This document shows positions 1 to 51,401 of a stretch of 51,612 nt of DNA, piece by piece. Made by a program: the position numbers and the translations under genes. Each line of letters begins with the position of its first letter. The stretch's first letter is position 1. A model generated the notes under the pieces. That model had not been told where the DNA came from. It saw nothing but the letters and a program-made list of their open reading frames with translations, and ran no database searches. Source of the DNA: Candidatus Omnitrophota bacterium (lineage in GTDB: Bacteria > Omnitrophota > Gorgyraeia > B26-G9); the NCBI GenBank assembly GCA_018817165.1, contig JAHITY010000059.1, positions 1-51,612 on the forward strand, in the 5' to 3' direction.

Positions 1-1622
1 CCATTAAGCGTTGTTCCTGGAACTGGATCTGTAATAGTCATAAAATGATTATCAATAGTAACACTGCCTTGTTTTTCCCGGAAATTCCCCTGTCCGTCAT
101 CAGCAGTGATCCGATAAATATACTCACCATCCGGCTGGATATTGGAATTATCATCACAACCATCCCAAGGAGCATCAATATCTCCAAGCGAAACCGAAAC
201 ATTTTCCCCCATAGTTCTAATCAGATTATTATTAATATCATAAATTTTCAAGCTGATAACCGCGTCTCGATTAATACTAAAAAAGATTGTAGTATTATCA
301 AAATCATTATCAGCATTTGGACTAAAAGCATTAGGAGCAGTATACACACTATAAATATTAAATTCATCAGAGAAATTTAACGTTATGGGAACAGTATACT
401 CCTGTCTGGCCTGGTTGTTTAAGTCCTGATAAAGGGCAGAAATTGTCACCTCAACAACATCATGAGCACCAGCAGATTCATCTATAAAAAGCCAATCACC
501 ATTGGCCTGATGTTCAAACAGCACATTCGTATCAATCCAGTCCTGGGCGCCTTTTGCCCGATAGAAAAATTTTACATTGGATTCATTGGAAATGTATTCA
601 GAGGGAATAATATGATAAAAAACTTGGCTGCCAATAGTAACAATGCTATTATCTACCGGCTCAATTAAATTTAAAAACTTATTATCTACTGTAACCTGTC
701 CGGATTTAGTTTCCATCGCGCTGCTTATTTCATAAATATAAGTGCCGTCAGCAACAATATCACCTGAGGAATTTTTTCCGTCCCAAACAGCACTGTGAGT
801 ACCAGCATTTTCCGCGACATTGCTTTTTAAAACTTTGATAAGATTATGGGAATGATCATAGATATTAACGCTAATATTAGAATTTGCATTAAGCTGGTAG
901 CTAATAGTTGTTGTATCGTAGTTAGAATCAGAGTTAGGGCTAAACGCGTCCGGAGCATCAGACAAATTAGAAATCAATTGATAGCCCGTAGTATCCAGGA
1001 TAATAGTATCAGTAAAAGGTTGTGACCAGTTGCCGGCTATATCCTGGTATTTGACATAGACTGTTTTTTCTCCATCACCTGTGGTCAAAGTCCAGTTTTT
1101 GAGAGTGTTATATGGTTCAGGGGCTGAGTAGGTGATATTGTCATTGGAAAACTGCATCTGTCCTAGACCTGAATTACCATCAATGGATGATAGAGTCAGA
1201 CTTACTTCCGGGGAAGTGGTATTGACATCATCAGCATTGATCGTGATCGTTCCGGTAGGCGGAGTTGTATCAATTAGTCCTCCCTGGGTAGCTATGATGA
1301 GCTTACCGAGAGTGACTTCTCCGCTAGTAATGTTTAAGTCTCCCATAAGAACTGAGTCATCTAGACTGTTATCGGTGAAGTCCTGGTTGTAGCCGCCGAT
1401 GAGGGTTATGCTTATATTTTGATTAAAGTTACAATTCTCTGAATACCACATAGACTGGACTTGCAGCGTATCTTGGTCCTGGGCATTATCATAAGCTTGC
1501 TGAATAGAAGGGTATGTAGTTGTGTTTCCTTCTATTCTAACAGCTGCCTGAGCATAATTGGCTAGTAAGAGACAGCCTAGGATCAGGATTGCCGATTTTT
1601 TATATTTGAGGTATCTTTTCAT
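1..1622 (-). CDS. Exported surface protein with repeated FlgD-Ig-like domains (3' end truncated by window start)
   Basis: Hand translation from ATG at 1622 stays open to the window edge: MKRYLKYKKSAILILGCLLLANYAQAAVRIEGN... Two copies of PxAFSPNxDxxxDxTTIxYxxNxxxxISxxIYDxxxNLIxxx...WDGxxxxGxxxxDGxYIYxI, typical of FlgD Ig-like repeats. Absent from the ORF track because it runs off the window. Confidence 0.85.
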   Translation of the reverse strand, partial: MKRYLKYKKSAILILGCLLLANYAQAAVRIEGNTTTYPSIQQAYDNAQDQDTLQVQSMWYSENCNFNQNISITLIGGYNQDFTDNSLDDSVLMGDLNITSGEVTLGKLIIATQGGLIDTTPPTGTITINADDVNTTSPEVSLTLSSIDGNSGLGQMQFSNDNITYSAPEPYNTLKNWTLTTGDGEKTVYVKYQDIAGNWSQPFTDTIILDTTGYQLISNLSDAPDAFSPNSDSNYDTTTISYQLNANSNISVNIYDHSHNLIKVLKSNVAENAGTHSAVWDGKNSSGDIVADGTYIYEISSAMETKSGQVTVDNKFLNLIEPVDNSIVTIGSQVFYHIIPSEYISNESNVKFFYRAKGAQDWIDTNVLFEHQANGDWLFIDESAGAHDVVEVTISALYQDLNNQARQEYTVPITLNFSDEFNIYSVYTAPNAFSPNADNDFDNTTIFFSINRDAVISLKIYDINNNLIRTMGENVSVSLGDIDAPWDGCDDNSNIQPDGEYIYRITADDGQGNFREKQGSVTIDNHFMTITDPVPGTTLN

Positions 1623-15317: not shown

Positions 15318-18300
15318 TTAGCCTTGTGATGCTGTTGTCAACATAAATCCATTAAGATCATAATAGAAAGTTGTTGCCAAACCATTAGAAGCATTTTTAG
15401 TTTCTTTCTGTCTACCACTGGCATCAAAATATGTTGTAGCGGTAACTGTACCTTCATTATAAGCAACAGATTTACTCAAAAATCCATTACCATCATAAGA
15501 ATACTTCGCTTGCAAGGCACCTTGAGTAAAACCATCTGTTACGTTTCCAACCATCAAGTATGACTCTGTCTGTTGTCCATATTTATTAAAGAATGTTGTA
15601 GTTGTCTGTGCCGCACTCCATACTCCTGTTAACTCTTCCATTTCGGAATAACTGGTCGTAGATGCTAAGAAGCCTTGATCAGAATATGAATATTTCTGAA
15701 CAACCGCACTTCCTTCAGCAGGTCCACCCGGTACATGATTCCAAACCTCATTAGGTCTAGAATAAGCATCATAATTAATATGGCTCACCAAACCACCTTC
15801 TCGCCCATAAGTATTGGTACGATCGATACCCCCATAAATATTATATGTATTGTCCTGGTTTTTGAATCCGCCACTGGCAATCGAACCATCATCATTAACT
15901 GTATAGTTGGCAATACCGCCTTCAGATCCAGGTACAAACATATAACTCGTTGATGTTGTCCCATCCTGTTTCTCAAATGTATAAGCATTTCCTGCTTCAT
16001 ACAGCTGATAAGTCGCCGTTGCTTTTGAGAAAACATCAAAAGTTGTATATGAAGTTTTCACACCATTGTTAAAGTTTACTGTCTGAGCTAATTGACCTTT
16101 ATCATTGTAGAAGTATTGAGTTGTTGCTACTCCTTTGTAGTTAAGCGACTCAGTTGGTCTGCCAGTATTATCATATTTCAGAGTTCCAGTAACCGCTTTA
16201 TCTTCACCATAGTTAACAGTTTTATCAATAAAACCGTTTCTGGTGTAGTAATTCTTCGATGTCTGAATTCCCAGCTGATTATATGTCATTTCCGGACGTC
16301 CGTATTTATTGTATACGCTGGTTCCGGTATATACTGAAACATCATCACCAGTAGCAGTTTGAGCTTTATCCGCACCTGTATCCATTGAATACATTACTGC
16401 TCCAGTTACAAACCCGGTATTCGATGATCCAGCAAATTCCGATTTTCCATCCCATTCTGTACTATAAACAAATCTCTGCGACAATGATTCGACATTGTTA
16501 TATACTGAATAAGATTCTACAGGTCTGCTCTTAGCATCATATGTCGTATAGCCAACTACTTGATAAATACCATGCTGAGTTTCTCCCGCAGCATTAGTAA
16601 CATCAACAGCCCATTCTCCAGTAGCAGCAGAATCTTCTTGAAAAGCAAGGTTTATCGATTTAGTCATAAATCCAGCATCATTGTACTCAAAACTGCTTAC
16701 AGTATAACCTTCCGCATTGGTAGTATGGGTTTGTTTTCCATAATCATTGTAATAGGTTGTACCAGTTACCGGACCTTTTAATTCAGTACCACCATCACCA
16801 TAAGATGTACTAGATGCCAGAAAACCATTAGCATTATACTGAAAATCCTGAACAACCGCATTTCTTTCATTATAAGCTGCTACAGGTCTGCCATATTCAT
16901 TGAATACGGTTTTTCCTGTATATGTATTATTAATCCCATAATTGCTTGTCTGACTCATAAATCCCGCGCGAGAATATGCAAATGCTGTTGTCTTCTCACC
17001 CAGTTCATTATAGGATTTTTCCTGCTGCCCATATTTATTAAATGTTGTATATCCAGAAACCTCATTATTATCACCATAACTGACCGTAGCAGTCAAAAAT
17101 CCAGTATTAGCTGCCTGACCAACTAATCCGATAGTACTTGTTTCACTCGAAGAATTTGTATTGTATATGAAATCCTGGACTTTTGTGGCTGTTCCGGATT
17201 CAGAAACAGTATAAGAACCAACGGGCCTTCCCGCGCCATTATATGCGGTGTATCCAGTTAGCACTTCATTATTACCATAACTGTTTGCCTGAGTCATAAA
17301 GCCTTGTGCATCATATGCATAATCAGCTATTTTTGAGCCAACTTCATTAGTCTGATTAACAGCCTTACCATAAGCATCATATGTTGTTAATCCGGTAAAA
17401 GTCGGAGCCATTACTCCATCTTGTACAGTTGGTTCACCATAAGTTTTGCTTGACTCCATGGATCCGGTAAAGCTATTGTAATTAAAATCCTGAACTAAAG
17501 CGCCACGACTATTATAACTTGTCTCTGGACGACCCAGATCATTAAATACAGTCTTTCCGGTGCTAGCCTTATCTAAACCATAGTTTAAAGCTGAATCCAT
17601 AAAACCTTGACTTGAATACTTATACTTTGTTGTTGTTTCACCAAATTCATTCATCGAAGTAAGCTGTCTGCCGTATTTGTCAAATTGTGTGGTACCGGTT
17701 TCAACTCCATCTTTTCCATAGTTTGTTGTGCTAGTCAAGAATCCTTGCGCTGTATCATAATTATAAGTTTGAACTAAAGCTCCTTGACCTTCTCCTTGTG
17801 TATCCCAATAACACTGATAAGACTCTGTTGGACGAGAATGGTCATCAAACATCGTATATCCAGTTACCGCATAAAAACCATGCTCAGTTGTTCCATTTAA
17901 AGTATCGGCTGAATCATTTAGATTATTATGAGTAACATCAACCGCAAAATCTCCAGCGGCAGCACCATCCTGAACAAATGCCAATGATGTTGTTTTGGTC
18001 ATAAAGCCTTGTGAGTCATAGTCATATGAGGAAACAGTAATCCCCATATCATTTTCGCCTCTCAGCGCTTTACCATAACCGTCATATACTGTTTTTCCAG
18101 TCATAGCCTGATTTTCACCATAACTCGTACTTGACGCTAGGAATCCAAAGTCATTATACTCAAATGTTTGAGTTAATCCTTTTAAACCAGAGCCACTTCC
18201 TGCCATATTAAAAGCTTCAGTTGGACGACCCATTTTATTAAATATAGTTTTTCCAGTATATGCGCCATCAAGACCATAGTTATTGGTCTGTTTAAGGAAC

Positions 18301-21300
18301 CCTTGATTTGAATATGCATATTTAGAAACAACCGAACCTGAATCATTATAAGTTGTTTGCTGTCTGCCATAATCATCAAATGTTGTATATCCATTATCAA
18401 CCTCATTGCGTCCAAAGTTATTAGTCTGGACCATGAAACCATTTTCATATTCATATTCTTGAACTTTTGCAGACTGTTCGCCATTAGTTCCGTCATTATA
18501 AACAGAATATGTCGCAACTGGTTTTGATTTTTCATTAAATTCCGTATATCCAGTCCTTACTGTATTTACTGTGGACACTCCATCAACAGTGGTAAGCATA
18601 ATATTACCATTTTCATCTGTTTGAGCACCATAGGACTCAGACATGGTCATAAAACCGCGTTCATTATAAACATACTGCTGAGTAACTATGCCTTCTGCAT
18701 TTTCTACAGAAGTAGCTTTACCATATTTGTCATATTCTGTTTTACCAGTATATGTCGGCATATATTTAGCCGTTCCATCTGTATATGTTGTTTTATTAAA
18801 GGTACTTAAATCAGTTCTATCGATATCACCATCTGAATCATAATCAAAACCTGCACTATAATTAGCATCTCCGGCAACAGAGTTAAAAGCAGCACTGAAA
18901 GCCGTTGAGCCGTTAAAAGAAGCTTCGAACATTGATTGGTCAGTTGCATCAATAGCCCCGTCATCATTAAAATCAAAATCAGTGGAATAAAGTTTATCTC
19001 CTCTGACCGATCCCACAGCAGCAGAAAATTTGTCTAATCTAGCAACATCGATCACAGTTGCCTCTCCCCAAGTCTGACTTGACTCAAGAAAACCGTCATC
19101 GCCATAAACAAATGTCTGAGTTACACCTTTTAAATACGGCTGCCAAGCTGGATTATCCAGATCTTCTGCAGTCAAACCAGCTGAAAGAGCAGCAACCAAA
19201 TCATCAGGAAGCTTTGTTGCCGCAGAACCATAACTATTATAAGCAGCAACTGGTCTTGAATAATTATCAAAAACAGTTACGCCTGTAACTTTTTTATTCT
19301 TTCCATAGGAAATTGTACTCGAAAGGAATCCTTCTGCCGAATAGTTATATTTTTGAAGTACTTGATCGGTTTCTCCAAGAGCTTCATCACCTTTAAAATA
19401 ACTTACATTTTGACGGCCATAACTATCAAACGTGGTATATCCAGTAACCGCCTGCTGATCTTTATTTGCGCCGCTGGTAGTAATTACCCCATCACCATTT
19501 GAATCATAGAAGTCACCAAAAGTACTTGTTTTCTGCACAAAATTAGAAAATTTTGTTACCGAAACATCAACAGTAATTGCTCGACCATTAGCATCTACTT
19601 CCCCAGTAGCTTGTTTCTCAGTTTCTTGATAAGCATAAGAAAACTCCTGAGTTTTTGCAGTCTGAATGCCCAAACTTGCCCCATTTTCATCAAATTTCTC
19701 ATACATTGAAAAAGAAGCCATTGGTTTGCCATCTCCGCCAAAAACAGTATAGCCTGTTACTGAAGGAAGATTAACTGTTGGCAGATCCAGATCACCCGCA
19801 GGACGATCAGCGGCATTAGAAAGCTGCGCAACTGACCAACTGGTTACACTCTCCTGTGCTGTTCCCGCTGCATTATAGGCCATAGCCCCGCCAAATTCAG
19901 AAATCTGAACTTTGTACGCGGAAATAGCTGCTTCAGAATTACCATCTTTTTCCAAAGACTGACCAAGCATATGATATGCAGTACCCACACTATTGATTAA
20001 ATATTCATTACCGCCTTTTGCTCCGTCACTAAACCACATAATTATTGTTAATGCGATTTTTTCAGTTAGATCAGTATTACCGGAATTAGCGGCAGTAAAC
20101 ATTGCAGTAACAAAAGCCCCGTCACTAAGATTTCCACCAGTAGCAGCCATTGCATCTGCAGTATAAGAGTCATCCCACAATGCCAAAATTGCTTCCTGAT
20201 CAGCCATAGTTGAGGCAATAGAACCATTAACGCCTTCAGCTGCACTCATTGTAAAACTTTGCACAAGCATACCACATTCATCATAAACATATTTTTGCAC
20301 AGAACTATCTTCATGATTATAAACATCAGTTGGCTTGCCTTTATCATTATAAAGCGTATATCCTGTTGTTACTCCATTTTCTCCTTTATTAAGCGTTTTA
20401 GTTAAGAAGCCATCTTCACTATAAACAAACATCTGGCTGTCTGAACCCTGCCCATTTGTCGCAACAGTTGGTCTACTATAACGGTCAAAATTTGTAGTCC
20501 CATTAACTTTACCGCCAAATCCATAACTAACAGTTTGCGCAAGGAATCCATTTTTATTATATTTATATGATTGTTGTTTTTCCATTATAGCTTGTTTTGC
20601 ATCAGTTGTTGCAATCGCGTTTCCATCACTATCATAACCGGAAATCAAATCACCATTGTCATTACGCACTAAAGCATATACTGCTTCTGGTCTGCCTTTT
20701 TTATCATAAGCAGTTATCGAAGTTGTAATATATTGGAAATCGCCATTTACATCTAAAATTGCTTGGCCATAATTTGCATCATTTTCATTAGTATTTCTAA
20801 TAATACCCAGAGAATAAGTATTTGCTAATACGCCATTTTCCTTATATGCATATTCCTGAATTTTAACTTTATTGCCGCCATCACCTAACTGCCAAACCTC
20901 ATTAGGACGACCTTGACCATCAAAAAGCGTCATCGAAGTTCTTTCCTGGTAGCCCAGAGAATTGATTGCGCCCAAAGAAAATGTCTGTTGCAAAAATCCA
21001 TGATCATTATACTCATATTCCTGAATTTTAACGCCTTCTTGATTGTATGTTCCGGAAACCTGTCCGAATTCATTATAATCTGTCCATCCAGTAATAACAC
21101 TTTCCGCGCCCAGATTAGTAATTGAACTAATCCGATTAGCAGAATCATAATTATAAGCTCCGATTGGAACCAAATTAGCGACTACTGCCTCTCCGGTTGC
21201 AGGATCAATAACTTCATTACCATCAGCATCAACCAAATTAATAACATCATAAATTGTAGTGTAATATCCATTACTTACAGTAGTGATTTGATTTGATATT

Positions 21301-22106
21301 ACATCAGTAACTGAAACTAAAATCCCGCCAGTATCATACTGAAATGTTTTAGTAATTGTACCTTCAAGATTTGTTACGTAAGAAGGACGAATACCATCTT
21401 GTTCAAAATGAGTGGTATTGCCATTTTGATCAGTAAAGGTACTCAACATACCCTTTGAATTATAGGTATAATCACCAACCTGAACCGCGGTTCCATCCAT
21501 ATTGGTATACATAATATAATCAGGACGTTGTTTGCTATCATATACGGTTTTATTGCCCCATTGATCAGTAGAACTGACCATTATCTCAACATTATTTTTA
21601 TCCAAACCATATTCATAAGTAATTGTGCCCTGAGCAGCAGTTGATAAAATCTGCCCATATTGACTATATGACCTTGTTTCAACAAGTGCACCATTATCAT
21701 TGTAAAGCTTAACAGTTGCCCCATCCAGCTCATATTTATAAGTTAAACTTTCTCCAGTTTCATCATTTTTAACTTTAATAGTTGCTCCGTTTAAAGAATA
21801 GGTTACTTCGGTATACCCTTCTGAGGTTTTACTAACTTGAGCGGAAGCTCCCTCTCCAGAGTAAATATAAAGATCCCCATTGGAAGTGGTAATTACCCTT
21901 GGTGGAGGTGCTACTTGCTGAGTCAGATCACCAGATTCACTTTGCACCGCAATCTGATCGCCAAATACCCCATTAACTACCTCTGGGGACATCAGCATGT
22001 CTTCCATTGCATTTACATCAAAAGCAAAAGCAAGATTCATAGTGGTCACATTAACGATAAAACAAACTAATAATAAATAACAATAAATACGAATATATTT
22101 GTTCAT
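15318..22106 (-). CDS. Giant secreted YD/RHS-like repeat protein (2262 aa)
   Basis: RBS GAAAGGAGCACAGTC ATG; N-terminal signal-like segment; dozens of units of consensus TGxTxFDxYGRPxxxYNxxGxxVQxYxYNxxGFLxxTxxYGxxN. No RHS core or C-terminal toxin visible; ends inside a repeat. Confidence 0.9.
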   Translation of the reverse strand: MNKYIRIYCYLLLVCFIVNVTTMNLAFAFDVNAMEDMLMSPEVVNGVFGDQIAVQSESGDLTQQVAPPPRVITTSNGDLYIYSGEGASAQVSKTSEGYTEVTYSLNGATIKVKNDETGESLTYKYELDGATVKLYNDNGALVETRSYSQYGQILSTAAQGTITYEYGLDKNNVEIMVSSTDQWGNKTVYDSKQRPDYIMYTNMDGTAVQVGDYTYNSKGMLSTFTDQNGNTTHFEQDGIRPSYVTNLEGTITKTFQYDTGGILVSVTDVISNQITTVSNGYYTTIYDVINLVDADGNEVIDPATGEAVVANLVPIGAYNYDSANRISSITNLGAESVITGWTDYNEFGQVSGTYNQEGVKIQEYEYNDHGFLQQTFSLGAINSLGYQERTSMTLFDGQGRPNEVWQLGDGGNKVKIQEYAYKENGVLANTYSLGIIRNTNENDANYGQAILDVNGDFQYITTSITAYDKKGRPEAVYALVRNDNGDLISGYDSDGNAIATTDAKQAIMEKQQSYKYNKNGFLAQTVSYGFGGKVNGTTNFDRYSRPTVATNGQGSDSQMFVYSEDGFLTKTLNKGENGVTTGYTLYNDKGKPTDVYNHEDSSVQKYVYDECGMLVQSFTMSAAEGVNGSIASTMADQEAILALWDDSYTADAMAATGGNLSDGAFVTAMFTAANSGNTDLTEKIALTIIMWFSDGAKGGNEYLINSVGTAYHMLGQSLEKDGNSEAAISAYKVQISEFGGAMAYNAAGTAQESVTSWSVAQLSNAADRPAGDLDLPTVNLPSVTGYTVFGGDGKPMASFSMYEKFDENGASLGIQTAKTQEFSYAYQETEKQATGEVDANGRAITVDVSVTKFSNFVQKTSTFGDFYDSNGDGVITTSGANKDQQAVTGYTTFDSYGRQNVSYFKGDEALGETDQVLQKYNYSAEGFLSSTISYGKNKKVTGVTVFDNYSRPVAAYNSYGSAATKLPDDLVAALSAGLTAEDLDNPAWQPYLKGVTQTFVYGDDGFLESSQTWGEATVIDVARLDKFSAAVGSVRGDKLYSTDFDFNDDGAIDATDQSMFEASFNGSTAFSAAFNSVAGDANYSAGFDYDSDGDIDRTDLSTFNKTTYTDGTAKYMPTYTGKTEYDKYGKATSVENAEGIVTQQYVYNERGFMTMSESYGAQTDENGNIMLTTVDGVSTVNTVRTGYTEFNEKSKPVATYSVYNDGTNGEQSAKVQEYEYENGFMVQTNNFGRNEVDNGYTTFDDYGRQQTTYNDSGSVVSKYAYSNQGFLKQTNNYGLDGAYTGKTIFNKMGRPTEAFNMAGSGSGLKGLTQTFEYNDFGFLASSTSYGENQAMTGKTVYDGYGKALRGENDMGITVSSYDYDSQGFMTKTTSLAFVQDGAAAGDFAVDVTHNNLNDSADTLNGTTEHGFYAVTGYTMFDDHSRPTESYQCYWDTQGEGQGALVQTYNYDTAQGFLTSTTNYGKDGVETGTTQFDKYGRQLTSMNEFGETTTKYKYSSQGFMDSALNYGLDKASTGKTVFNDLGRPETSYNSRGALVQDFNYNSFTGSMESSKTYGEPTVQDGVMAPTFTGLTTYDAYGKAVNQTNEVGSKIADYAYDAQGFMTQANSYGNNEVLTGYTAYNGAGRPVGSYTVSESGTATKVQDFIYNTNSSSETSTIGLVGQAANTGFLTATVSYGDNNEVSGYTTFNKYGQQEKSYNELGEKTTAFAYSRAGFMSQTSNYGINNTYTGKTVFNEYGRPVAAYNERNAVVQDFQYNANGFLASSTSYGDGGTELKGPVTGTTYYNDYGKQTHTTNAEGYTVSSFEYNDAGFMTKSINLAFQEDSAATGEWAVDVTNAAGETQHGIYQVVGYTTYDAKSRPVESYSVYNNVESLSQRFVYSTEWDGKSEFAGSSNTGFVTGAVMYSMDTGADKAQTATGDDVSVYTGTSVYNKYGRPEMTYNQLGIQTSKNYYTRNGFIDKTVNYGEDKAVTGTLKYDNTGRPTESLNYKGVATTQYFYNDKGQLAQTVNFNNGVKTSYTTFDVFSKATATYQLYEAGNAYTFEKQDGTTSTSYMFVPGSEGGIANYTVNDDGSIASGGFKNQDNTYNIYGGIDRTNTYGREGGLVSHINYDAYSRPNEVWNHVPGGPAEGSAVVQKYSYSDQGFLASTTSYSEMEELTGVWSAAQTTTTFFNKYGQQTESYLMVGNVTDGFTQGALQAKYSYDGNGFLSKSVAYNEGTVTATTYFDASGRQKETKNASNGLATTFYYDLNGFMLTTASQG

Positions 22107-22133: not shown

Positions 22134-22217
22134 TTAAAATTCTAAATAAAAATACTGATAAAAAAAATTAAATAATATCATATGATTAAATAATAATATC
22201 GTAAAATTTCTAGCCAT
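22134..22217 (-). CDS. Possible 27-aa leader peptide (uORF) between riboswitch and giant gene
   Basis: AAAGGAGGAAGGCTGGCGA ATG GCT AGA... gives MARNFTILLFNHMILFNFFYQYFYLEF*; strong Shine-Dalgarno. Confidence 0.35.
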   Translation of the reverse strand: MARNFTILLFNHMILFNFFYQYFYLEF

Positions 22218-22280
22218 TCGCCAGCCTTCCTCCTTTCAAACTTATTTTAAAACAAAATAATAGCCAAACTGCTTTATTTT

Positions 22281-22460
22281 CGGCAGCTCGGCAGTCATAG
22301 CTTATTTTCGCGTTATCGATGCGCTAGGCGATCATTGCTTCAGCTTTAGACCCGTAGCTTTGCACATATACCATTCATTTTATTCAGGTACATGGCCCTA
22401 AACTATTCGTTACACTCAAGTTCAGGGGTCCTCATCTTTCAATGAGTTTGCCTTTTCGGA
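22281..22460 (-). promoter_or_regulatory. c-di-GMP-I (GEMM-I) riboswitch with a 64-nt junction insertion
   Basis: Minus strand AAAAGGCAAACTCATTGAAAGATGAGGAC-[64 nt]-GCAAAGCTACGGGTCTAAAGC...GCTATGACTGCCGAGCTGCCGAAAA. GGCAAAC, a GAAA-capped P1b, GCAAAGC, a UCUAA/UAUGA 11-nt tetraloop receptor and a GCCGAGCTGCCG 3' core are all present. Confidence 0.85.
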
Positions 22461-22859
22461 TTACTCCAAAAAACTAACTTTATACTTATGAAAAGCCTTT
22501 AATTAAACTTAAAAATAATTCTCATCTTACAGGCAATTCATATAGAATTTCAGAGCATTCATTTGCGGATAGAATTTGGCTTTTAATTAGCGGACTATTT
22601 TCCGAGGATAATGAATTCGTATTTGAATATAATAGTGTTACAGATATAAATATTTTATCTTGTTCCCTCGACGAAACAATCCAATCACGCTTGCCCTTGC
22701 CATACACAAATTGAGGCTCTTTTACCTCAATTAAAATATACCATAGATTTAAAATTTTTGCAAATTTATTAGAATAAATTAATTTGCCACAACATTTTGT
22801 TTATTTCAAACCATTTTTTTAGTTTTTTCCGATTAAATTTTCACTCAAAAATGCTAATC

Positions 22860-24086
22860 TTAAATCCGCTCCTGCTTTATAAAGCAGTCCATCAGCTCAT
22901 ATCCATTGGCAAAGACAAATTCGCTCTTTTTAGCTTCATTTTCATTATACAAGCAAATCTCGTCTTTTTCTATTCCGCTGCCATACATTAACAAGCAAAC
23001 AGGATCTGAAGTATGGGTTTTCAATGCCACAGGGGTTGGATGATCCGGCAAAATCATCAAACGATAATCTTTTACATCCTTCAGACCAGCTAAAACAGTT
23101 CCCAGAACTAATTTATCAAAACTCTCAATTGCTGAAATCTTCGCCCTGGCATCGCCATTATGGCCTGCCTCATCCGGAGCTTCAACATGAATAAACACAA
23201 AATCATCTTTTTCCAAAGCTTTTAACGCGTACCTTGCTTTCGCCTCATAATCCGTATCATAATAACCGGTTGCCCCAGGAACATAAATTGCCTCTAAACC
23301 AGCGGCACAACCAATGCCTTTGATCAAATCAACCGCAGAAATAACCGCTCCTGATAAACCATATTTTTCCTTAAATGAAGGCAAATCTACTTTTTTACCC
23401 TGACCCCACAGCCAAATCATATTTGCCGGGCTTTCATTTAAATCGCGACGGACTTGATTAATTTCATGCAAATCCAGGATTTCTCTGGCCTTTAGCATAA
23501 TATCATTGATAAATCCGGCTTTCTTCTTATCCAACATATATTTTTCAATTTTCTGCCCCATAATATCATGCGGTGGATAACACCTCACTTTACACAGATC
23601 ATGGTTTACATCTTTAATTATCATCAAATGCCGATAACTGACCCCTGGGTAAAATACAATACCTTCTTTTTTAAAATGCTTATTCAGCACTTTTATGAGA
23701 ACTTGCGCTTCCTTTGTAGTAATATGCCCGGCACTATAATCAACTAAATAGCCATTACCTTCGGTAATAAAATTACAACGAAAAGCAACTTCATCAGCTT
23801 TAAGCTCAATGCCTAAGTGAGTCGCTTCCAGCGGCGCTCTTCCCGAAAAATATTTGTTCGGGTCATAGCCAAAAATTGCCAGATTAGCCACATCGCTTCC
23901 TGGGATCATGCCTTCTGGAACAAAAGAAGCTTGTCCGATTTTGCCATCTTTGGCCAGTAGATCCATATTCGGTGTCCGGGCAACCTCCAGAGGAGTTCTG
24001 CCTCCCAGCTCTGCTAAAGGATAATCCGCCATACCATCAGGAACCATAACTATGTATTTCATTTTTTTTGACATTTTTGAATTCAA
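22860..24086 (-). CDS. Phosphoglycerate-mutase-like (apgM/ThrB2-type) protein, proposed homoserine kinase
   Basis: MKYIVMVPDGMADYPLAELGGRTPLEVARTPNMDLLAKDG...GSDVANLAIFGYDP; adjacent to thrC and hom. Confidence 0.85.
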   Translation of the reverse strand: MNSKMSKKMKYIVMVPDGMADYPLAELGGRTPLEVARTPNMDLLAKDGKIGQASFVPEGMIPGSDVANLAIFGYDPNKYFSGRAPLEATHLGIELKADEVAFRCNFITEGNGYLVDYSAGHITTKEAQVLIKVLNKHFKKEGIVFYPGVSYRHLMIIKDVNHDLCKVRCYPPHDIMGQKIEKYMLDKKKAGFINDIMLKAREILDLHEINQVRRDLNESPANMIWLWGQGKKVDLPSFKEKYGLSGAVISAVDLIKGIGCAAGLEAIYVPGATGYYDTDYEAKARYALKALEKDDFVFIHVEAPDEAGHNGDARAKISAIESFDKLVLGTVLAGLKDVKDYRLMILPDHPTPVALKTHTSDPVCLLMYGSGIEKDEICLYNENEAKKSEFVFANGYELMDCFIKQERI

Positions 24087-50447: not shown

Positions 50448-51401
50448 ATGATCAAAAAAAATATATTTTCCATTGGCTTAGACAAACAAACAATCGAATC
50501 ACTTTATGCTTATTTTGCTGAAGACTTTGATTTCATTATTATTGAAACCGCTGAAGAATTAATGAGCAAAATCAAAAAACATAAAGCAAGTTTAATGTTT
50601 TTAAACAATCGCTTATCTGATTTTGACAATTGCCAGGAATTGTGCATTGTTCTGCGTTCTCGTCCAGACACCGAAACTGTCCCTTTGATTATCTTGACAA
50701 ATGACCCGTCAGAATTACATCAAAAAGAAAAGATCTCTCTTTTTCAAGCTGGATTAATTGACGGCTATTTTTCCATGCCTTTGAATGCCGAAGAACTGGC
50801 AGCGTATTCAAATGTTTTTTTACAGCGCCAATCTTTACAGGAACAACTAGAAGAAACAAATAAACTGCTGTCTACAATTTCGATTACTGATGAATTAATG
50901 CGGATTTATAATCGCCGTTACTTAATGCATCGCTTAGAAGATGAACTGACCAGAATAAAACGCTATAATTACCCGCTTTCCGCGATTATGATAGACTTAG
51001 ATTATTTTAAAAAAATCAATGACCAGCACGGTCACATTCAAGGAGACAAAGCACTCAGAGGCCTGGCGGTTTTTTTAAAGCAAAACATTCGATCAATGGA
51101 CATTCTCTGCCGCTATGGAGGCGAAGAAATTGTCATTCTTCTCCCCCACACAAGCAACAAAGGCGCTTCCCTGACTGCTGAGCGTATCCGCAGCCGAGTA
51201 AAAGCGCATAATTTTGGCGATACCGATAATCCGCTACGCTTTACTATAAGCATTGGTTTGGTTACTTTTGACGGACAAAATGAGCTAACTGTAGATAAAG
51301 TTATCCATGCTCTTGATGCCCAGCTTTATAAAGCCAAAAATAGCGGTCGGGATAAAGTCTGCGAAACCTTATATGAAGACACACTTAAGCCTGATGCTTA
51401 A
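50448..51401 (+). CDS. Diguanylate cyclase (degenerate receiver plus GGDEF)
   Basis: ITDELMRIYNRRYLMHRLEDELTRIKRYNYPLSAIMIDLDYFKKINDQHGHIQGDKALRGLAVFL...RSMDILCRYGGEEIVILLPHT. Confidence 0.95.
   Translation: MIKKNIFSIGLDKQTIESLYAYFAEDFDFIIIETAEELMSKIKKHKASLMFLNNRLSDFDNCQELCIVLRSRPDTETVPLIILTNDPSELHQKEKISLFQAGLIDGYFSMPLNAEELAAYSNVFLQRQSLQEQLEETNKLLSTISITDELMRIYNRRYLMHRLEDELTRIKRYNYPLSAIMIDLDYFKKINDQHGHIQGDKALRGLAVFLKQNIRSMDILCRYGGEEIVILLPHTSNKGASLTAERIRSRVKAHNFGDTDNPLRFTISIGLVTFDGQNELTVDKVIHALDAQLYKAKNSGRDKVCETLYEDTLKPDA

Follow-up and report, generated by a model that had tools for sequence, protein, structure and literature searches.

Riboswitches of the c-di-GMP-I class (RF01051) combine a 5' half, a P2 helix with a GNRA loop, a receptor for that loop and a 3' core, with G20, A47 and C92 in the ligand pocket. 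For the pilM riboswitch of Geobacter (an ON switch for c-AMP-GMP) and for Cd1 (an OFF switch for c-di-GMP), regulation has been described in terms of a four-strand P/A/T/H logic, with a terminator that competes with an aptamer strand (PMC9262584). Tandem c-di-GMP-I riboswitches place more than one c-di-GMP-I-like fold before a single gene, as two complete aptamers that are able to form together (PMC9481103).

The RNA considered here lies upstream of a gene for a giant YD-repeat protein in the window, i.e. the whole stretch of 51,612 nucleotides of Candidatus Omnitrophota DNA that was analysed. It shares all of the above elements with RF01051, from which it differs by having two alternative 3' halves for one 5' half, by paired-hairpin inserts at fixed junction positions, and by a 5' CCGAAAA and a proximal tail ACCGAYAACG that are kept in the Omnitrophota form. 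As in pilM, a terminator competes with an aptamer strand, and pilM is an ON switch, as is proposed here; in contrast to pilM and Cd1, there are two copies of strand A (P-A1-A2-H), each able to pair with P, an arrangement of which the available part of that account gives no example (PMC9262584). Whereas the two aptamers of a tandem can form together, those of the dual-half RNA can only form one at a time. Two near-identical 3' halves compete for one 5' half in a natural riboswitch, so that the choice between two aptamer folds would depend on the order of folding, the ligand and the terminator. Such a design apparently has not been described so far. The open-licence literature gave no account of a doubled 3' half, of mutually exclusive aptamers, or of riboswitches or c-di-GMP in Omnitrophota, which is weak evidence of novelty since only open-licence papers were covered. 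The survey of tandems treated overlapping pairs as a single riboswitch and set them aside, so that the dual-half form could have been passed over (PMC9481103).

The upstream RNA is a real c-di-GMP-I-class aptamer. The covariance-model check that the original prediction had proposed, with insertions allowed, returned a match to RF01051 at 22462-22279 on the minus strand (Rfam cmscan of the whole window; 42.2 bits versus a gathering score of 35, E = 5.7e-5). The 184-nt aptamer folds at -49.5 kcal/mol (z = -3.28), and none of 200 shuffles was equally stable. Its main parts are the following.

22279 to 22462, minus strand: c-di-GMP-I (GEMM-I) aptamer in its canonical (distal) fold (RF01051, 42.2 bits).
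22446 to 22459, minus strand: conserved 5' strand CCGAAAAGGCAAAC, with G20 at 22452 (from the sequence; CCGAAAA recurs in most relatives).
22431 to 22446, minus strand: P2 hairpin CTCATT-GAAA-GATGAG with a GNRA tetraloop (from sequence and fold).
22343 to 22363, minus strand: shared 5' half of the core GCAAAGCTACGGGTCTAAAGC, with A47 at 22361 (from the Rfam match and alignment).

All elements that had been named from the sequence are present on the minus strand, namely GGCAAAC (22452-22446), CTCATT-GAAA-GATGAG (22446-22431), GCAAAGC (22363-22357), TCTAA (22350-22346), TATGA (22299-22295) and GCCGAGCTGCCGAAAA (22292-22277). The assignment to GEMM-I thus holds, with a score above the gathering value and G20, A47 and C92 in the pocket, and so does the proposed contact between a GAAA tetraloop and its receptor, both elements being in place (GAAA at 22440-22437; CUAA/UAUG in the distal fold).

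The bases that contact the ligand in the distal fold, G20 (22452), A47 (22361) and C92 (22283), exclude the c-AMP-GMP, GGC and UAU variants. The bases which we take to define these variants (including A20 for c-AMP-GMP and G47 for GGC, the latter from the Rfam model consensus) follow the Rfam consensus lines and general knowledge of the class. The c-AMP-GMP variant (GEMM-Ib) needs A20, and the window has G at 22452. Membership of c-di-GMP-I-GGC (RF03167), suggested by higher scores in some relatives (in part exceeding its gathering score), was rejected because A47 is kept, here and in 27 of 27 aligned sequences. The probable ligand is c-di-GMP.

The 37-nt insertion that Rfam reports in P3 duplicates the 3' half of the aptamer. 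It contains most of GCAAUGAUCGCCUAGCGCAUCGAUAACG, parallel to the canonical GCUAUGACUGCCGAGCUGCCGAA, and an unrelated origin was ruled out once it had been aligned with the 3' half. In the window, two 3' halves spaced 37 nt apart share a single 5' half, and the 5' strand GCUACGGGUC can pair alternatively with either of them.

22311 to 22338, minus strand: proximal 3' half GCAATGATCGCCTAGCGCATCGATAACG, with U in place of C92 and a single mismatch against the 5' strand (20.9 bits without the distal half; alignment).
22279 to 22301, minus strand: distal (i.e. canonical) 3' half GCTATGACTGCCGAGCTGCCGAA, with C92 at 22283 (Rfam match and alignment).

A tandem, in which each of two complete aptamers has a 5' half to itself, was rejected, as the window has a single 5' half. 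When the distal half is removed, RF01051 still aligns the rest of the core, with 20.9 bits versus 42.2 in its presence. The second 3' half explains the low Rfam scores, with long 'insertions', of such RNAs.

Both pairings are conserved. In 27 aligned sequences, 99.6% of the cells are paired between the 5' strand and the proximal half and 99.3% between the 5' strand and the distal half, each with double changes in four cells, compared to 16-50% in slid controls. Shuffle controls reached the observed covariation score in 0 of 500 and 1 of 500 cases for the two pairings. Compensatory changes are found in L026 (5' UGG with CCA in both halves), in L136, L137 and L140 (5' GUU with AAC or GAC in the proximal half) and in single-half loci (AGG with CCU; ACC with GGU). 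Each 3' half has its own version of the P3 helix, and the proximal half is further enclosed by a P3b extension; P3-proximal, P3-distal and the P3b extension each beat 2000 of 2000 permutations among sequences (not corrected for relatedness). A second 3' half is expected by chance only about 0.00-0.12 times per locus. Part of the locus set was gathered with the proximal motif itself, so that the conservation of this motif is partly a selection effect; however, about 15 loci had already been collected by Rfam match or by ortholog position when the motif was first drawn up.

These pairings bear on the idea that the RNA is an ordinary c-di-GMP-I ON switch with a single working 3' half, and that the proximal copy is a relic, without function, of a tandem aptamer that decayed. 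Among tandem riboswitches, those of c-di-GMP-I form the most frequent class (PMC9481103), and the proximal half of the window does have a mismatch and an altered pocket base. However, the proximal half occurs in dual leaders across families, paired and with compensatory changes as described above, and its own P3 hairpin tracks the 5' strand (0 of 2000 permutations). A relic is unlikely to have kept such pairing and such a hairpin, which makes this explanation improbable, although the proximal half is possibly a relic in the window alone.

The locus set was built by motif search, exact pattern scan and model search (R1). The pattern scan of 85,462 genomes gave 24 matches: 20 in Omnitrophota, one in Firestonebacteria, two in 'PVC group bacterium' and one by chance. 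The last (L177, Lysobacteraceae) lies in DNA that looks coding, lacks a 5' half and was left out. Of the 39 distinct loci, 30 carry both 3' halves and nine only a half of the proximal type. The dual form is found in at least nine Omnitrophota families (f1, f3, f9, f14, f23, f25, f34, f43 and f66) and on a Firestonebacteria contig. The model search added loci with a hairpin inserted in the proximal linker (L200, L215, L219 and L220), in which the tail ACCGAYAACG or a close form is retained despite the hairpin. A second dual type, with canonical tails on both halves, precedes pilin-like operons in L004 and L006, and is also found in f3 and f9 (L201, L205, L206, L207 and L213).

Several further leaders were noticed along the way. 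Two canonical-tail 3' halves lie at 1410-1610 in L004, 1232-1390 in L006 and 1501-1640 in L012, and are also seen in L203, L216 and L217; pilin-like (GFTLVE) genes follow the leaders of L004, L006, L203 and L216. Dual-half riboswitches also stand before small secreted-looking proteins (L003, L014, L065, L067, L068 and L181), of 158 aa in L003, where the ORF was fully read, and with family N termini such as MKKSFWFKIITIIIIQAILLTQV. Through these RNAs, c-di-GMP would be connected, within a large uncultured phylum, with giant secreted YD-repeat proteins as well as with pilin-like operons and small secreted proteins.

Downstream, the distal half doubles as the 5' strand of an intrinsic terminator in 29 of the 30 dual-half leaders, including that of the window.

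22249 to 22292, minus strand: intrinsic terminator GCCGAGCTGC-loop-GCAGTTTGGC, then TATTATTTTGTTTT, with the distal 3' half as its 5' strand (-14.6 kcal/mol).

Its stem in the window is GCCGAGCUGC/GCAGUUUGGC, followed by UAUUAUUUUG. A terminator scanner limited to loops of up to 8 found no terminator in the window, since the loop here is 10. In computed structure, the leader has the features of a transcriptional riboswitch, i.e. a terminator stem that is exclusive with an aptamer helix and is followed by a U-rich tract. Energies were calculated with ViennaRNA with each pairing forced (ignoring ligand, tertiary contacts and pseudoknots). As long as the terminator arm is missing, 27 of 30 leaders favour the distal fold, by 5.0 kcal/mol on average (-18.0 versus -10.9 in the window), whereas with the terminator arm 25 of 30 favour the proximal fold combined with the terminator (-32.7 versus -30.2 in the window). 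The unconstrained fold of the window's leader is -40.5, below either constrained state, which speaks against the switching scheme proposed below.

Taken together, the RNA is probably a transcriptional c-di-GMP-I riboswitch on the giant YD-repeat gene, in which the ligand holds the distal fold and turns the gene ON. The proximal half (located in the P3 loop) would be transcribed first and form a compact fold with the 5' strand, after which the distal half, once transcribed, would form the more stable, canonical aptamer with that same strand. Without ligand, the 3' arm of the terminator would capture the distal half while the 5' strand goes back to the proximal half (OFF); c-di-GMP would stabilise the 5'-distal aptamer and thereby block the terminator (ON). 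Family membership, position, pairings, terminator overlap, energies and distribution were computed, whereas c-di-GMP as ligand, the sign and kinetics of the switch and the function of the protein are inferred. Ligand binding by the distal fold, and hence ON, is the best reading for the window because its proximal half has U at the C92 position and has lost a pair, while its distal half is canonical.

Not all relatives fit this ON reading equally well. The base at the C92 position swaps between sister species: the window has C in the distal and U in the proximal half, while G001 (L054, same genus) has A in the distal and C in the proximal half, which would favour the proximal half as the binder in that species. 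In f45 relatives only a half of the proximal type is present, which seems to be the aptamer of an OFF switch; in these leaders, as read by eye, a downstream strand GCCAAGCUGUC can either pair with GAUAGCCUGGC or form a terminator. Moreover, the conservation of the proximal tail ACCGAYAACG exceeds what a passive decoy would need, and counts against the ON reading.

It is therefore conceivable, though doubtful, that the dual-half RNA is itself an OFF switch, with the proximal half as the ligand-binding aptamer and the distal half as an antiterminator that mimics it on the same 5' strand. In that case c-di-GMP would lock the 5'-proximal fold, leaving the distal half free and allowing the terminator to form. 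Proximal-type halves indeed occur alone, with other terminators downstream, in f45, f34 and f43 (66.8 bits in L134), the tail is strongly kept even with a linker hairpin, and C92 is kept in the proximal but lost in the distal half of G001. Since the distal fold is the more stable one without the terminator arm, ON could also be the default state. On the other hand, the window's proximal half, with U instead of C92 and one pair broken, gives only 20.9 bits versus 42.2 with the distal half. Likewise, the distal half has kept the UAUGA receptor strand and the A49-U91 pair (27 of 27 sequences), neither of which an antiterminator would need.

Less expected, yet worth mentioning, is that both folds might bind c-di-GMP or a related cyclic dinucleotide, one leading to OFF and the other to ON, which would make this a band-pass RNA; we regard this as unlikely. 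As the proximal fold forms first, high ligand concentrations would trap the OFF state, intermediate concentrations would be caught by the distal fold (ON), and absence of ligand would lead to termination. If so, the response would be tuned, or inverted, from one species to another by the base that either half carries at the C92 position (C, U or A).

Whichever way the switch operates, the gene that follows it encodes a protein of unusual size.

15318 to 22106, minus strand: 2262-aa secreted-looking RHS/YD-repeat protein with a dockerin-like segment (Pfam and ORF).
22860 to 24086, minus strand: 2,3-bisphosphoglycerate-independent phosphoglycerate mutase, the conserved upstream neighbour (recognisable in ortholog loci).

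The ORF matches RHS_repeat (PF05593; Pfam, 55.6 bits versus a cut-off of 22, E = 6e-15), and YD/RHS repeats span most of its length, behind a signal-like N terminus. These repeats are shared with known RHS/YD-repeat proteins, from which it differs by a dockerin type I segment in the middle of the protein (E = 1.2e-6 when this piece was searched alone). Pfam gave no further family, NCBIfam gave no match, and sequence comparison revealed no solved relative.

Orthologs of the giant gene occur in relatives of one family (f1), and upstream DNA was readable for ten species, the window's own included. In seven of these (G000, G001, G002, G003, G008, G010 and G011) the RNA lies upstream of the giant gene, as judged by Rfam matches for G001, G002, G008, G010 and G011. 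In G003 a contig breaks off at the riboswitch, which follows the phosphoglycerate mutase gene, while the start of the giant gene is on another contig. The leader of G005 (L061, G005:C34) looks decayed, with GGAAAGC replacing GCAAAGC and the terminator kept; the RNA is absent upstream of the giant gene in G006, while in G004 it is absent before the main copy and present before a shorter paralog (L060). The giant gene had originally been proposed as the target from position; with the RNA preceding its ortholog in six other species, and the phosphoglycerate mutase neighbour kept, gene order makes the putative link between riboswitch and giant gene well supported.

Between the RNA and the gene, the window contains a short ORF.

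22134 to 22217, minus strand: 27-codon leader ORF with an AGGAGG-type ribosome site (from the sequence).

In most relatives, too, a short ORF preceded by a strong ribosome site was seen some 110-190 nt upstream of the giant gene, its peptide being little conserved between genera. The aptamer might in principle act mainly on translation, via this ORF or its ribosome site, and the presence of both in the window and most orthologs would fit. Nevertheless, the terminator stem uses the distal half in nearly all leaders, the sequence of the leader ORF is poorly conserved, and no pairing between ribosome site and aptamer was noticed on unsystematic inspection, so that a mainly translational action is highly improbable.

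On the P2 side, the aptamer carries an additional element.

22364 to 22427, minus strand: site-B insertion, two adjacent hairpins between GAC and GCAAAGC (fold -20.8 kcal/mol; z = -3.6, 0 of 300 shuffles).

G001 and L003 have the same two-hairpin form at site B, with unrelated sequence. Relatives carry hairpin inserts at site B, at site A (between CCGAAAA and GGCAA), at both or at neither, nearly always as a pair, the sequence being variable and the position fixed. Five inserts that were tested gave z-scores of -3.1 to -5.1 versus mononucleotide shuffles. Inspection by eye of a few members revealed no kissing between the loops of paired hairpins. Our guess would be that the hairpin pair structurally extends the junction next to the ligand pocket.

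GGDEF proteins are the usual makers of c-di-GMP, and the genome has 18 GGDEF matches, one of them inside the window (an ORF at 50448-51401, plus strand). Finally, L001 has a canonical c-di-GMP-I aptamer before a pilin-like operon (1270-1600, minus strand); the long leader behind it contains several hairpins, and GTCAGYTGCC-like stretches recur in it.
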